A DNA stretch of 64,000 bases, from contig OX485806.1 of assembly GCA_950295325.1 (NCBI GenBank), positions 26,720,001 to 26,784,000 on the forward strand. The letters run 5' to 3'. Source of the stretch: Polytrichum commune (lineage: Eukaryota > Streptophyta > Polytrichopsida > Polytrichales > Polytrichaceae). The notes below the pieces were generated by a model that made no database searches, was not told the DNA's origin, and saw nothing but the letters and a program-made list of their open reading frames with translations. This document shows, one piece after another, positions 258 to 26,929 of the stretch; position 1 is the stretch's first letter; each line of letters starts with the position of its first letter. Both the position numbers and the translations under genes were made by a program.

Positions 258-5206
<4,949 letters not shown>

Positions 5207-5305
5207 ATTCTCTATCTACCTGTTGCTGATGAACCCCTGAGTAAAAATTACGTCTTTCTTGCTTCCGGCCAAACTCTAACTTCACCAAAACTTATTGCGT
5301 CCTCC

Positions 5306-6180
5306 CAAAAAATTTCTCCCAATGCAACCTGCCGCTTGCTCTCGCCTTTGAGCAACTTTGATTTGAGCTCTAAATGCACAGGTCTGACCTCAAGGGGACC
5401 TCAACTCAACAAGCCGATGAATGCCTGCACGTCAGCACCGAGCTATTTGCATCCGCTTCACCTAGAGAGCGAGCGAGAGAGAGAGCAAGACAAAGCTTAT
5501 GAGAACTTGTAGCTGGGGCTCAGCAAGCCTTTCTGCCGCTTGTGAACTTTGAATTCTTTGTTTCTCTTTCTTTTGAGACAAAATGAGTTATTTTGAATAT
5601 CTCTAATACAACCATCAAGTACACAAAGTTGGGTCCATCGCAACAAAAATCCTCCTAAAGCAAAATGCCGCTTGCTCTCACCAACAACTTTGAGCTCAGA
5701 ACGTATATCTAGGTCTGGTGACCTTAATACTTGCCTTCACTACTGCACCAAGCTACAGCTACTGCTGCTTCACTCACAGACACAGAGACGGAGACAGAGC
5801 TAGAAGGCTTCACAGAAATTGCAGCTGGGGCTCAGCAAGTGCTGCTTGTAGACTCAAAATTTCTCAGCAACCAGCAAGTCTACAGCTAAGGCAGCTACAG
5901 ATGAACCGGAAATCAATCTGGTCCCCAATCTGACCCAACCTTCACACAAAAATTGGTACAGAAGAATGCCCCTACTCTCCCCACCAACTTTGAGGCTCCA
6001 AATGATGACTCACCTAGCTCAAGCCAAAATAATTCAACGCCTTCACTTGTCAATCACAGCCAGAGGAAGGGATAGGTTCACAAAACTTAACAGACCAAGT
6101 ACTCAGCTGAGCTGGGCTCAGGAAGTCCTAGTGCTGCAGCTTGTGAACTCCTGCAAGCCTGATCTCAGGAGCTAACCTAC
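5306..6180. repeat. Three diverged tandem units of about 300 bp upstream of the peroxidase
   Basis: Units near 5306-5560, 5641-5880 and 5950-6180 share, in order, an AATGCC..CT.GCTCTC.C block, AACTTTGAG, a GCACC.AGCTA or similar block, a GAG-rich stretch, and a GCTGGGGCTCAGCAAG (third unit GAGCTGGGCTCAGGAAG) block followed by GCTTGTGAACT. This is the 5' flank of the minus-strand peroxidase. Unit 1 also holds a GAGA microsatellite. No TATA box was assigned. Confidence 0.65.
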
Positions 6181-7480
6181 AGGAAGCAAGCAAGCAAGCA
6201 GCCAGCTGACAGCTAAGGAATAGCTCACCGCATGAACTGAATGACGAGGATACTATAATAGCTACTTACTGCAATCAGGCCATGGGGTTCCAGTACTCTT
6301 ATAACTAGTACCAGTACTGCTCTAGCAAATAAAAGCCTGGTAAGTTAGCCCTGTGGGTTGAGTGATGGATGGATGGATCTGAAGTGAGCAAGCATGGTGG
6401 GAGGAGTCTGGTGTGGATCATCTCCAGTCTTTAAATGCTGCAGTACTGCCGCTAACCTAGCCTCCGAAACGAAGAGGCCAAGAAGGTGCCTTCACAGTTT
6501 CCCGGCGGCTTATAACTTGCTGCTGTTGAAACTTGAGACTGATCAGACTCACGTTGTGATGATGATCCTGATGTACCCTAAACTTGGAAGTTCCTCAAGC
6601 GCACCTGTTACTCATTCATTAAACCCTAAAGGCCGAAGCAAAATCTTCCCAAACTAGTCTTTACCAATAATTAAATTAGTCAAATTCATCAACTCGTTAC
6701 ATAACATTACTCAGAGGCGTAGGCCCTCATAACAAAACAGTGGGATGGTGGGAGTTCAAATTGAATATGAGTCTCCATGCGCAGTTTTTTTAGCATCCCA
6801 TTATTATATTTTAAGGGCCCACGGAATGAGAGTTGCATCTTGAGTAATGTTGATGTAAGAAAATTAGCATGTCTTATGGTAGATCTGACCATATGGATGA
6901 CATTGTTGACAAACCAAGATGGTTCACATGATCTAACCACGATAAGGTGTACCAAAATTGTATCACGCATCACTCTTTTTCCATAGTCCTTGGCACTCCT
7001 TTAAGTAGTTATCAAGCATTTATTTTAAACTTTACTTAGGGTTACAGTCAAGAGTTAGCATAATTATACATATTGTCAAGTGTTAGCATAATTATAGGAT
7101 CATATAAGTTGTGGCACCAAACTAAGATTAATTAAAGTCGACTCCAGCTTTCAGTTGTGGCATCTGACTCTCTCTCTCACAAATGCTGGGCCTGCAACAC
7201 GCATGAGCTAGCTAAAAAGGGCTCTGTAATTTGCTGCACTGCAGCAATTTATGACATCCATCTGACTCATTCACCTCCCCCTCTTTGATGAGCCGCGTTC
7301 TGTTGACACGACACGCATTCATGAGCGGTGGAAATTTGGTGGAAATTCCAGCAGCTTGCACTAATAAGTTACTGGATATGAAGTTGACGAGGTTGGCTAC
7401 CAGGTGGGAGTAACATAATGATGCGAAAGGGACAAAGAAGGAGCTTGTGAGCTGCCTGCATTCTTGCAACAACTCCCCCG
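6181..7480. other. Intergenic, no gene recognised
   Basis: Short simple repeats (GCAAGCAAGCAAGCAG near 6181, GGATGGATGGAT near 6366, CTCTCTCTC near 7170) are visible. The open frames here are short, lack recognisable motifs and overlap on both strands. Confidence 0.6.
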
Positions 7481-22841: not shown

Positions 22842-23636
22842 CGAACCCTCTATGCTTTCCAATCTAATATCAATGTTTGGTTAAAAAGGTATATATCCAT
22901 ATTGATAGGAAATATCTACTCACAATCTACCACCACATACATTGGAGAGTACTTTGGCAAAACGCAACCAATTCCCATACAAAGAGGAACCATACAGGGT
23001 GATACACTGAGCCCATACCTATTTATCATCTTTCTAGAGCCACTCCTACGATGGCTACAAATGGGAAATAATGGATACACCCTCCAAACCACCAACACTA
23101 AGCTAAACTCCGCAACGTATGCCGATGACCTAGCCGCTATAACCAACAAAGTAACATCCCTCCAAATTCAACTAGATAAAATAGACAAATTTTGCGAATG
23201 GGCGAGAATGGACTTAGGCATCTCCAAATGTGCGATCACCGGATGCCCCAACAAATCAAAACTAAGCCCACATGCCTTCAAAACACACTTACAAGAATCA
23301 AACATAAACTTTAGACACCAACCAATACTCATACTTAGCCAACACGAATCATATATAAACATGGGAATCAACCTAGTCCCCTCATTACAATGGAAAACGC
23401 AAATATACATCACCACGGCCAAACTAACCAAACAAAGTAAACTCTTAATAACTTGCCCAGATATTATTAAACAAAAAATAAAAATGATTGATATAGTTAT
23501 TAGAGCTAGCATAGCTTACAGCTTCTATGCTGTGCCATACTCTCTTCCGGCCATTAATAAACTAGACAAGAAAATAATAGCATTGCATAAATCCACATGT
23601 GGCCTATCAAAATGTATGTCCAATGCAGTCACATAA
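22842..23636 (+). pseudogene. LINE reverse transcriptase domain (truncated)
   Basis: The frame is open from 22842 to the stop at 23634-23636. Conserved RT blocks are visible: IPIQRGTIQGDTLSPYLF around 22970-23024 (RT block 4), ATYADDLAAIT at 23112-23144 (catalytic YADD) and a following DKFCEWARMDLGISKCAITG segment, the usual helix and K-x-x after the palm. The first catalytic Asp block is not readable, so the protein is 5' truncated or decayed. It would copy element RNA into DNA at a nick. The downstream frame continues the same polyprotein after frame changes. Confidence 0.9.
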
Positions 23637-25460
23637 CTGTCACACGATATGTTTGGGACATAAATTTTTTCATTAAAAAACGCATACATAACATGCATAG
23701 GAGAACAACTCATAAATGTCCTAAATGACAAAGGTAGACTAGGTAGAATATACAAAGGATTAATACAACACATACTTGCCAAACACGGAGGAGCCAAAAA
23801 TTTAACACGTATATCACCCCACGATTGTACGAGATCACCAATCACGAGATCTTTGTTCTTATTAAAAAAACAAGTGGAATCCACCTTAAAAGTACACTCG
23901 AACATTTTCCCCTCACCCCTACATCATTAGAAACACAATGGATGCTACAAGCAAGACACATTCCAACGTTGACCCCCGACCTATCACTAAAATACCTCCA
24001 CAAACTAATACTACACAACATATTTGAACTAAAACATATAACATGCTCCAATGGAACACACCTAATGAGTAACGATGAATTTAAAACCCACTACAATAAA
24101 CCCACAAAAAGAGAGAAAATTGCACTGGAATATGCTAGAAAGCTATTTTGTGAACCAATATGCCTTACCCAATGCACACAACCATGCCCAACACGTACAT
24201 CACCAAACACCCTGAAGAACGAATATAAAATACTAAATCATAACATACATATAAGGCCACAAGAACAACACACTCAACTGCAACCTCCATTATCATTAGA
24301 ACGTCCCAAACCACCCCCATACATACTCAAAGACCCAACACACTTCCCGATACAAAGCATCAGAAATGACCGCCTATGCGCATACACAGATAATTACAAA
24401 ATTTCAAAAAAATACACATCCTACATATGCCAATGGACACTTCCAAATGAAACAACTTACAACAAATGGCTACCCCAAAAAGAATTGTTTCCTTGGAACA
24501 ACCAAAATGCCATAAACCATAACATATTACTACTAACACAATACTACACTCGAAAACAACACCAACATTTTACTAACATACTAAACATAAACTTCAACCA
24601 AGAACAAATGAGAGATACTAGATATATCCCCCCACCACAAACCATACCCCTATGCCAATACACATTAACGAATGCAACCCAAAAGATAATATCGCATGCA
24701 TACAATATACTATCCAAACCCAATATGACAATGCACACATCTACGATAACTTGATTACCATTCATGAAACAAGACTAAAATGGTTATGGGCCCAATGCCA
24801 CCTAGCACTAAATAGACCACACAACCTTGAGCCCTGAACCCAACCATTCGAAACTGAAGTAGCATGGCTATACCAAAGGTATAAATACAAAACTCCCAAA
24901 AATGATCCCCTCAAATTCTTGCAATACACACTCCCAAATACCATCCTTGAAAACCTCATAAACACATTCCAAATAACACACTCATATTTCTCATCACCAG
25001 TACCATGCCCCACCACACTCAAACAATTCCACTCCCCATTCCCTAGAGATGCAGTTTTTGGATCAGTTGGAAAAACATTCTAACATAAATGGCATGGCAA
25101 TGGCTATGCACACCCACACACAAATACCGAAACTCAACAAGCCCGACATTGGGCCCGCATAGCAGCCAAATACGACTCAAACTCTATCACAATACTAGTA
25201 ATGCCAGACGAAAACTGGTATCATAATCTTAATCCTCATAGTGGCCCTTTCCCAGATTCGCATGTTATCACCTACTTCAAAGCCGATACCATCATCTACG
25301 AAGAACCAACAATTCCCCCAGAACTAAGAACTTAACCTAGAACAGAAAACCGAGCCATACAAATAGTATGCATACATCATAAGAATACACCCAAAAGAAC
25401 AGAGACCCATACCCAACAAATGCAATATATTGCCAACACACTAGGTATCCCCGAAATGTT
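23637..25460 (+). pseudogene. LINE linker region between RT and RNase H (decayed)
   Basis: A 309-codon frame (23825-24754) plus shorter pieces in other frames continue the RT polyprotein: LKNAYITCIGEQLINVLN near 23670-23725, then QWMLQARHIPTLTP, LCQWTLP-type and KQHQHFTNILN segments. The A- and C-rich composition matches the RT and RNase H blocks. Stops near 24753, 24838 and 25083 show decay. I see no separate enzyme domain here; it is probably the thumb, connection and a spacer specific to this LINE group. Confidence 0.7.
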
Positions 25461-25970
25461 TTGCCAAATAGCACCACTAACACCACTAGACACCCCAGTG
25501 AACTGCAATACAAAATGGACCAAACTCACCTACCCACCCCCCCCCCCCCGCCGACCATCCAAACTCCAACCAACCCATGGAATATCAACCCAGAACAATG
25601 CCTACCGCTTAAATACCCACCCCAATTTTGCTACTACACGGACGGGTCATTCAAACCTCCCAAACAAACAACCAATGGACAATGGAGATGGGAAAAAGCT
25701 GGATATGGTATTTACAGCCCTTTCAAGAACCTAAAAATTGCAGAAAGATTACTGGGACTACAAAATATCCTACAAGCAGAAATGATGGCCATACACCACA
25801 CTCTACAACTCCTCACCACAACATACCAAAATGAACCAACCCACATATTCACAGATTGTCTAAATATCCTATACCTCCTAAACACCCAAATCAAACACCC
25901 CACTAGTCATAACAGTCACCCGGACAAAATAATCCTAGAAAATATGATCAAAATATTGAACATAACTTAA
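25461..25970 (+). pseudogene. LINE RNase H domain, last motif missing
   Basis: The acidic residues of RNase HI are in place: Asp in YYTDGSFK (25641), Glu in LQAEMMAIHHTL (25779) and Asp in HIFTDCLNILYLL (25854). AGYGIY also fits the first strands. The frame closes at ILNIT, and only about 20 codons later the sequence reads QTHQLHKWLENDDIDK. The last RNase H block with the catalytic His and Asp therefore does not fit, which suggests an internal deletion near 25965. In LINEs this domain removes RNA during second-strand synthesis. Confidence 0.85.
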
Positions 25971-25983
25971 CAATTATAGCAAG

Positions 25984-26280
25984 TCAAACGCACCAATTAC
26001 ACAAATGGCTAGAAAATGATGACATAGACAAAATACTATCAAATGACTTTTGGACAAATCCCGTCATCACAGATAAGCAAAAAACATGCTTAATAGAATT
26101 CCGCACTGGACAATATATGGGCCACGCCTGGAAACAACTTTTCTTTGGCAGAGAAGCCTTCCCATCAAGAACATGTCCCATCTGTAACTCAACAGATGCG
26201 GATACATGGCTGCATGTACTACTTAAATGCAAACAACAACACATTCATGCACTAATAACAAAAAGACATAACAAAGCGGT
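25984..26280 (+). pseudogene. LINE segment with CCHC zinc knuckle
   Basis: Read in the frame of 26174, the segment gives LIEFRTGQYMGHAWKQLFFG and then CPICNSTDADTWLHVLLKC, a C-x2-C-x9-H-x4-C knuckle at 26174-26230. Such knuckles sit near the C-terminus of many LINE ORF2 proteins and bind nucleic acid. It continues with HALITKRHNKAV and a stop at 26282. Confidence 0.85.
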
Positions 26281-26347
26281 ATGAGAAATACGCAAACTCA
26301 TTGTATCAACCCGAATATCAAGACATTATGCATTAGTGAATGCATAA

Positions 26348-26929
26348 ACACATAATGAACTACCCCAAGAAAACACAATACCCCCATGGTTACTTCCATG
26401 TACATGTGATACCCTGAGATGTCATTGCAACGCTAGGCTCAAACCAAACATATTATGCATTATAGGCCATCCATATAACCCCCCCCCAGAAACCCCTACA
26501 CCTGATATCATCATACAGTTCATCGAATTCACATATTGCAATGATAGATTCGCCACTGAAACCCTAGATAGAAAAATCACAAAATACCAACCACTCATAA
26601 ACAACATCATAGCAAAGGGTTGGAATGTAGCCCCACTCATGGTACTAGTCGCAAGAGCAAGAGGCACAACACATATCCCATCAATGAAAAAACTGGAAAC
26701 AACATTCACAATCCCCATCACGAAAATCAAAAACACGTTTAAACAAATTAACATAATCGCCACACAATATGCACACTCCATATTAGTCCACAAACGAAGG
26801 CTAGAAAATCAACAAACTTTTAATGATCTCCGAACATACACTTTTTTTCACTCCGGCCTCCTCCGGAGACCAGAGTTCTTCTTCTTCTTCTTCTTCAATG
26901 CTTGGTATAGGAATGAGTTCAAGGTGTAA
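26348..26929 (+). pseudogene. LINE C-terminal restriction-like endonuclease candidate
   Basis: The frame is open for about 190 codons after the stop at 26345. It begins with PWLLPCTCDTLRCHCNARL (cysteine cluster CTC...CHC). Next come TPDIIIQFIEFTYCNDRF, DRKITKYQPL, KGWNVAPLMVLVARARG, and a basic helical end RRLENQQ. A PD motif followed by E-F-T and a later KITKY looks like a PD-(D/E)XK-type fold, as in restriction-like endonuclease LINEs such as R2 or Dualen. The usual Lys of the E-x-K is Thr here. The nuclease call is an inference from motif spacing. The last residues after 26820 are probably read-through into the tail. Confidence 0.6.

Follow-up and report, generated by a model that had tools for sequence, protein, structure and literature searches.

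The closest described counterparts of the element treated here are the Dualen/RandI elements, long interspersed nuclear elements (LINEs) that Kojima and Fujiwara reportedly found in green algae in 2005. Dualen is portrayed in a passage on this group as combining an apurinic-type endonuclease (APE), a restriction-like endonuclease (RLE) and RNase H (PMC4640811). For RandI/Dualen of Chlamydomonas, a section of a 2013 review mentions partner short interspersed nuclear elements (SINEs) and tails other than poly(A), and gives RandI for green algae (PMC3747384). In the corresponding section of a 2022 review, the LINEs of land plants comprise L1 and RTE only (PMC9033089). The DNA analyzed in this study (64,000 nucleotides from the moss Polytrichum commune, contig OX485806.1, positions 26,720,001 to 26,784,000; hereafter called the window) contains a dead, 5'-truncated LINE at 22901-26896 on the plus strand, which begins inside the reverse transcriptase (RT) domain. 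Very probably, it is a copy of a LINE family of approximately 13 kb possessing both an APE and an RLE in the architecture of Dualen/RandI. The family shares with these elements, as they are portrayed in the cited passages, an N-terminal APE, a C-terminal RLE, RNase H and repeat tails distinct from poly(A), accompanied by SINE partners. By contrast to the published descriptions, it resides in a land plant and has a 2A motif, a PCIF1-like domain, a length of about 13 kb and a G-poor second open reading frame (ORF2) of up to 2924 codons. The initial annotation, made from the letters of the window, had suggested a land-plant LINE of a Dualen-like or a separate deep clade. The observations behind it were confirmed in part, and the proposal itself is supported: the features are present and the architecture (APE, RLE and RNase H) supports the likeness to Dualen, known to us from published descriptions, whereas the limits of the element, the position of its PD motif and the notion of one polyprotein had to be corrected.

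To place the window copy in its genomic context, the genome of the window itself (408 Mb, 64 contigs) was searched. Loci fetched from it bear L-numbers, and for genome counts only the stated number of the candidate places was scored. The RT fragment query yielded 145 scored copies from 1584 candidates, hence the window feature is a member of a repeat family. Together with the Pfam match of the window to RVT_1 (E 9e-13), this number shows that the feature did not arise by chance. Nine of the 145 scored copies have stop-free frames of at least 2000 amino acids around the RT. Four relatives (L009 to L012), picked for long open RT frames, contain ORF1 and, downstream of it, an ORF2 frame of 2625 to 2924 codons. 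In ORF2 of L009, a 2A-like motif (residue 576) is followed by an N-terminal domain, the APE (about 800-1050), the RT (1420-1686), a linker, the PCIF1-like domain (2169-2264), RNase H (2438-2578), a CCHC knuckle (2701), a Cys cluster (2776) and the EFTY motif of the RLE (2819). The collection of full-length relatives from the same genome, which had been recommended initially, thus revealed an APE in the N-terminal part as well as an undamaged RNase H (PF00075, 3.6e-12 and 1.5e-14, above the cut-off). In the window, the N-terminal domains including any APE are invisible because the copy is truncated within the RT. The element length of about 13 kb was estimated in L027 together with L010 from a change of composition near 1.0-1.1 kb of L027. 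Two ORF1 pieces gave no Pfam match near any cut-off; comparing the ORF1 frames of three copies with one another nevertheless showed homology (identities of 26-38% across 356-489 residues, E between 4e-51 and 3e-102).

Ratios of nonsynonymous to synonymous substitution rates (dN/dS) were determined for individual domains. In the pair L009/L012, the ratio was 0.55 over 195 aligned codons of the leader upstream of the 2A-like motif, compared to 0.12 at the motif and the next 30 residues, 0.13 in the N-terminal domain, 0.07 in the APE, 0.06 in the RT, 0.14 in the PCIF1-like domain, 0.06 in RNase H and 0.09 in the RLE. L009 and L010 gave 0.42 (leader), 0.24 (N-terminal domain), 0.11 (APE), 0.06 (RT), 0.17 (RNase H) and 0.12 (RLE); values for the 2A motif, the linker and the PCIF1-like domain were not computable in this pair, as synonymous sites were saturated. 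Purifying selection acts domain by domain, and this is as well established as the anatomy and the copy number of the family. L009 and L011 lie on two different chromosomes and share 98-100% identity in each domain compared. This near-identity suggests, without proving, recent movement of the family; a duplication may account for it as well.

With regard to the N-terminal nuclease, Pfam detected PF03372 (Exo_endo_phos) in L010 only (25.5 bits, cut-off 24.5; 1.3e-5), and a match to exonuclease III was obtained (E 0.007 over 42 residues). The motifs N, E, GDFN and SDH, which we take to be the set typical of APEs, are legible in L009 to L012. It speaks against this assignment that the APE of L009 was not reported by Pfam at E values up to 1.

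For the C-terminal nuclease, 22 loci matched the RLE, of which 14 were aligned (alignment A1), the others being partial, broken, cut by the end of the locus or a near-duplicate (L011). The alignment consists of two lineages that are 44-47% identical to each other. Within it, D152, E179, K195 and K198-Y199 are invariant (14/14). L035, which is devoid of the Asp, and L021, which lacks one lysine, were omitted from A1 and counted in a wider tally. In this tally, PDI was found at the conserved site in 17 of 19 readable copies including the window, the exceptions being the window and L035, while all four E/K/K/Y residues were present in 19 of 20 readable copies, with Glu in place of K195 in L021. 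An AlphaFold2 model based on the 14 relatives reached a mean predicted local distance difference test score (pLDDT) of 70.7 and a predicted template modeling score (pTM) of 0.73. Foldseek ranked seven proteins of R2 retrotransposons highest for this model (E from 2.7e-6 to 8.9e-3). In VIA-align comparisons, R2 proteins scored Z 14.0-12.1, and the next fold, that of viral cap-snatching endonucleases, scored Z 8.4. The viral enzymes are also PD-(D/E)XK nucleases. The catalytic residues reported for R2Bm are Asp996, Asp1009 and, on a helix, Lys1026 (PMC10499050); in the RLE model, the lysines likewise sit on the helix following the acidic strand. The model supports an R2-type PD-(D/E)XK nuclease in the C-terminal segment, which it fits above all other folds listed. 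The restriction-like nuclease proposed from the window has therefore held up, and the comparison of folds, in which a non-nuclease fold would have argued against it, pointed to R2 nucleases. Conservation and fold exclude that the C-terminal motif arose by chance, though the particular PD picked out in the initial annotation is a chance match.

Several observations weigh against an intact RLE throughout the family. The Asp is missing from the window copy and from L035, a near relative, and one lysine is replaced by Glu in L021; an intact RLE is thus not retained in all sub-lineages. On the sequence level, the RLE profile reaches R2Bm at E 1 only, over the knuckle and the RHN region. It might be argued that the RLE is a relic and that the element nicks DNA with its APE alone. 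Dualen has been discussed, in the part of the literature that treats this point, as evidence of an RLE replaced by an APE (PMC4640811), and the Asn at the position of the catalytic Asp in the window and L035 may indicate that one sub-lineage has lost RLE activity. We regard a relic as unlikely, though, in view of the dN/dS of the RLE, which was 0.09 in L009/L012 and 0.08-0.12 in four other pairs, and of the retention of PDI and the E/K/K/Y residues in nearly all readable copies of lineages as distant as those in A1. As a separate observation, the Asn shared by the window and L035 possibly marks a sub-lineage that spread although its RLE was defective. Such a sub-lineage would be a natural test of the role of this nuclease.

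To our knowledge, R2 elements have neither an APE nor RNase H and rely on a single endonuclease. The family resembles R2 in the position of an R2-type RLE (fold Z 14) behind a CCHC knuckle, in the nearest solved RT and in its structured 3' RNA. Unlike R2, it contains an APE as a second endonuclease as well as RNase H, and no single insertion site was seen: inspection by eye revealed no shared site, and the 3' flanks differ between copies.

The RT of the full-length relatives matched PF00078 (RVT_1) above the cut-off (1.5e-29 and 3.9e-27). Its best match in the PDB was R2 (8e-26), compared to 5.9e-14 for the LINE-1 ORF2 protein. A tree was calculated with ten RTs of the family, four L1 RTs of the same genome found via zf-RVT, three R2 RTs taken from PDB alignments and one group II RT. 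The family RTs form one clade (support 95/98, or 100/99 without the outgroup) apart from L1 (100/100) and R2 (85/60), and the window copy is nested inside this clade (100/99). Thus, the RT does not fall within the clade of the four L1s; a place inside ordinary plant L1 would have argued against the initial annotation. Neither does it lie inside the R2 clade, although a sister relation with R2 was not rejected (p 0.085). The branch of the group II outgroup was too long for rooting the tree. The deep branching tempers the classification, as the approximately unbiased (AU) test gave p 0.157 for the family joined with L1 and p 0.085 for the family joined with R2, so that neither arrangement was rejected. 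Moreover, membership in Dualen is proposed from the architecture, the tree covering RTs of the family, L1, R2 and group II.

Two other affiliations have to be weighed at this point. The family might be a separate, deep R2/NeSL-like lineage with an RLE that gained its APE and RNase H independently and resembles Dualen by convergence. The best PDB matches of the RT, R2 proteins far above L1, are in line with this idea, as is the statement in the cited review passages that plants have L1 and RTE only (PMC9033089; PMC3747384). In the tree without group II, the family and R2 rows join, but this split is none other than the L1 branch, viewed from its opposite end. On the other hand, the domain set is identical to that given for Dualen (PMC4640811), and the non-poly(A) tails and SINE partners are those described for algal RandI/Dualen (PMC3747384). 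As common ancestry with Dualen is simpler than convergence, we consider a separate lineage rather improbable, while taking it more seriously than the other competing explanations. An ordinary plant L1 or RTE element, the C-terminus of which has decayed and resembles a nuclease, would account for the APE, RT and RNase H, as all three occur in plant L1 too, and the genome does contain zf-RVT elements (141 matches among 150 scored places out of 322 candidates). However, the family differs from plant L1 in its RT clade, the RLE, the tail type and a 3' RNA module. Its RT lies outside the four sampled L1s, the RLE is retained in all 14 rows of A1 under constraint and matches R2 in its fold, and the tails are (TTC)n, (TATC)n and similar rather than poly(A). 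An ordinary plant L1 is rejected on the RT tree with its four L1s, the RLE and the tail, and this explanation as a whole is extremely unlikely. In IMG/VR, scans based on the alignments of the RLE, the RT and the PCIF1-like domain produced 31, 66 and 21 pattern matches, respectively; none was confirmed, and no relative emerged.

At its 3' end, the family possesses a module of about 130 bases located before a tail of (TATC)n, (TTC)n or a related repeat. The core of this module has 1165 matches in the genome, while reversed controls gave none. Sixteen of 19 loci matching the core were aligned (alignment A3); L046, L049 and L056, which lack the 5' half, were left out. The consensus fold of the 16 sequences has 25 base pairs, nine of them with compensating changes on both sides, and three single modules folded more stably than shuffled sequences (z -3.2, -3.4 and -2.2). 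In Rfam, seven loci gave no match at the gathering score. The only stretch shared by L058 (1-330, minus strand) and L059 (its last 326 bases) is a sequence with 96% identity. This 330-base sequence has A- and B-box-like sequences by eye and showed no match with the LINE proteins tried. Since ARAGORN found no tRNA in nine loci, its head is tRNA-like by eye only. In the genome, 40 copies were scored from 1777 candidates and were 98-100% identical. Judged from its sequence, it is an abundant, young, tRNA-like SINE carrying the 3' module of the LINE and a (TATC)n tail, and it appears to use the LINE machinery. It follows that some share of the 1165 module matches are SINEs. Apart from the module, L009, L010, L012, L015 and L017 contain a second conserved block in the 3' untranslated region, between the ORF2 stop and the module. 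This block holds an antisense B-box-like sequence (ATCGAACC) and may be either functional or an ancient tRNA-like insertion.

Between the RT and RNase H, the family has a domain related to PCIF1 (CAPAM), the cap m6Am methyltransferase. PF12237 (PCIF1_WW) was matched with 41.6 and 47.0 bits (cut-off 31.1; 1.3e-10 and 2.9e-12), and genome-wide 150 of 698 candidate places were scored for this family. Against the PDB, the L010 sequence matched human PCIF1 (E 0.001) and zebrafish PCIF1 (E 0.005), and a profile of 14 rows matched the zebrafish (0.0037) and the human protein (0.33). The rows are those of alignment A2, for which 14 of 25 matching loci were used, with the remainder left out for the same reasons as in A1. 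By structure, PCIF1 was the best match as well (Z 8.6 at an rmsd of about 9). The likeness is weakened by the low confidence of the underlying model (pLDDT 52.5) and by the adenine methyltransferase RlmJ, which follows PCIF1 closely (Z 7.3, rmsd 4.4), with other methyltransferases below. A further point concerns the NPPF motif, which is required for catalysis in PCIF1 (PMC8452764). It was found in none of the 14 rows of A2 and in none of the 19 copies readable at this site. Instead, the site reads HPHN, HPPN, HPHT, HPHS, FPTD, YPTD or HPKD, so that the replacement itself is unconserved. The domain is nevertheless constrained, with a dN/dS of 0.11-0.19 in four pairs other than L009/L012 (synonymous divergence near or above 1). 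Because it is constrained yet devoid of NPPF, it likely binds rather than methylates, and it is probably non-catalytic. Binding of a cap would be a conjecture. An active N6-adenine methyltransferase marking the RNA or DNA of the element would agree with the PF12237 scores, with the dN/dS values and with the structural matches listed for the low-confidence model, which are mostly PCIF1 and other adenine methyltransferases. Due to the absence of NPPF and the varying residues at its place, this activity is disfavored and regarded as very unlikely. The domain thus departs from PCIF1 in the loss of the motif and in being embedded in a LINE polyprotein.

The 2A-like motif upstream of the APE is the second unexpected part. 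Natural use of 2A was not found in plant viruses according to the part of a 2026 survey that deals with them (PMC12846837), and 2A sequences in non-long terminal repeat retrotransposons are cited in two other sources (PMC4981915, PMC11512398). Searching for DIExNPGP as degenerate DNA gave 267 matches in the genome to the (D/G/C/N)(V/I)ExNPGP core, while the reversed pattern gave none. A slightly wider pattern had 15 matches in 14 fetched loci, N-terminal to the APE. Ten of the fetched loci (L015 to L024) had been chosen by the pattern; in the four copies unselected for it (L009 to L012) the motif was present in all (4/4). Similar to 2A-bearing LINEs with an APE (L1Tc of trypanosomes and animal LINEs), the family has DIExNPGP upstream of the APE; it differs from them in its land-plant host, in the second nuclease of the element and in the occurrence of two motifs in the frame of L024. 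The latter copy (456-6848, plus strand) has two 2A-like motifs 267 residues apart in one frame of 2131 codons, apparently a tandem duplication of the 2A motif and the N-terminal domain.

The contrast in dN/dS between the leader and the motif in L009/L012 indicates that a short N-terminus before 2A is probably translated, at least in the lineage of these two copies, and that most of the long leader is probably non-coding. A number of findings count against a uniform picture. The near-twins L009 and L011 read DIKPNPGP, with K for E. Windows of 15 codons upstream of 2A were clear for L009/L012 only, four other pairs being mixed, some of which lose the frame downstream. Consequently, an onset of constraint approximately 45 codons before 2A, seen in L009/L012 alone, was dropped as a candidate. 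Upstream of 2A, no in-frame ATG occurs within 90 codons in L010 and L016, the one in L017 is about 68 codons away, and in L024 a stop immediately precedes the first motif.

Taken together, the parts permit a proposal on how the element might move. ORF2 would be translated with an N-terminal peptide ending in 2A, at which the ribosome would skip between NPG and P and free the polyprotein, as the motif and the constraint around it suggest. The RT may recognize the folded 3' RNA module and start at the slipping microsatellite tail, a step consistent with the covariation and the sharing of the module by the SINE. The RLE, positioned as in R2, could make the priming nick and the APE the other one, RNase H would remove the RNA, and the PCIF1-like domain probably binds the RNA of the element or its cap, with no methylation. 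It is conceivable, and advanced here tentatively as a possibility with the odds against it, that a captured PCIF1-type methyltransferase lost catalysis and came to bind RNA or a cap from its place between RT and RNase H; one protein would then hold the cap and the 3' module, two unrelated nucleases would cut the two target strands, and a natural 2A of a land plant would release the machine. If true, this would be a division of labor in target-primed insertion that was not found described. The PCIF1-like domain and the plant 2A are the most surprising parts of an otherwise known Dualen-type design, and the combination of domains was not found described for land plants. Among the literature matches listed, no title or abstract dealt with a land-plant Dualen, a PCIF1 domain encoded by a LINE or a 2A in a plant LINE, which does not prove priority. 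With an abundant plant family whose long frames are intact, it becomes testable which nuclease cuts which strand, what role a captured relative of a cap methyltransferase plays in retrotransposition and whether ribosomes skip naturally in plants, while the pair of LINE and SINE is a natural test of 3' RNA recognition.

The limits of the window copy were derived from comparison with seven fetched relatives, with which DNA homology opens at 22901 (five of seven) or 22903 (two of seven). Its closest relative is L003 (94.5% over 200 bases). The 45 bases 5' of the junction match L002, L003 and L004 at 13-14 positions only, and a longer protein alignment with L002 is therefore an overrun. A LINE is thus present in the interval 22842-26900 annotated initially, but approximately the first 59 bases are flank and the tail stops at 26896. 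Within the copy, the C-terminal part of the RT (22902-23591; 73% identity with L009) contains YADD at 23118-23129. The broken post-RT linker follows at 23598-24649 (two pieces with 46 and 61% identity), then the PCIF1-like domain with three stops at 24658-25533 (59% identity with L009, where PF12237 gave 1.3e-10). RNase H extends over 25602-25958 (67% identity; PF00075 7e-5, below its cut-off). The motifs YTDGSF, AEMMAIH and FTD (25611-25865), annotated as its triad, can be read in the translation, but relative to the full-length relatives a deletion near 25961-25970 has removed the final conserved residues. The CCHC knuckle and the RLE remnant, with two stops, lie at 25970-26815 (63% identity with L009 over 25937-26815). 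The C-x2-C-x9-H-x4-C knuckle (26174-26230) and the C-x-C-x4-C-x-C cluster (CTC-x4-CHC, 26399-26428), both noted before along with YADD, are present in the translated plus strand, and their Cys/His columns and four Cys, respectively, are invariant in A1. Of the annotated series PD...EFT...KITKY, EFTY (26522-26536) and KITKY (26573-26587) hold the second acidic residue and the helix lysines (E179, K195, K198 and Y199 of A1), whereas the PD (TPDII, 26498) is a chance match nearby. The conserved K/R-P-D-I site, corresponding to D152, reads KPN (26441-26458), Asp being replaced by Asn. One polyprotein, as assumed initially, is not encoded in the window, since translation of the three plus-strand frames revealed several frame changes and stops. 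At the 3' end, a terminal hairpin (26832-26875) corresponds, by comparison with L035, to the 3' part of the RNA module, the remainder of which is missing, and a (TTC)7 microsatellite tail follows (26876-26896). A candidate target site duplication, weak and identified by eye, comprises TCAATGTTTGGT at 22870-22881, 19 bases off the junction, and TCAATGCTTGGT at 26895-26906. Neither a second copy of the LINE nor the SINE or the L1 query L040 was detected within the window at the thresholds used.

As described initially, all features of the copy lie on the plus strand in one G-poor, A/C-rich block (GC skew -0.46 at 24001-26000). Depletion of G was also noticed in other copies: in L010, the G content is approximately 5% in the leader and 11% in ORF2, compared to 19% in ORF1, and L012, L024 and L029 contain 10-12% G. 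This pattern is reminiscent of the trace that deamination of cytosines in the first cDNA strand leaves on the sense strand, or of selection against RNA structure. The plus strand of L025 (3087-3680) holds a second family fragment that has a 3' module to itself. This fragment and the L012 element are oppositely oriented, and some 2.4 kb separate it from the ORF1 frame of the latter, upstream of which it is located. Paired LINE copies on a large and a small contig (C3:872459 and C24:9672; C6:20939255 and C36:7565) agree exactly in score and frame length; some of the small contigs may therefore be duplicates of chromosomal sequence. Finally, a profile search of the genome with SAM_LFY, a family that points to a land plant or a closely related alga, gave four matches, and the seven large contigs agree with mosses like Polytrichum. 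In LEAFY, a His/Asp position in the DNA-binding domain distinguishes most land plants from mosses, Asp being the moss type; the motifs at C1:40571941, C1:62299361 and C7:8636087 read MRHYV once and MRDYV twice.

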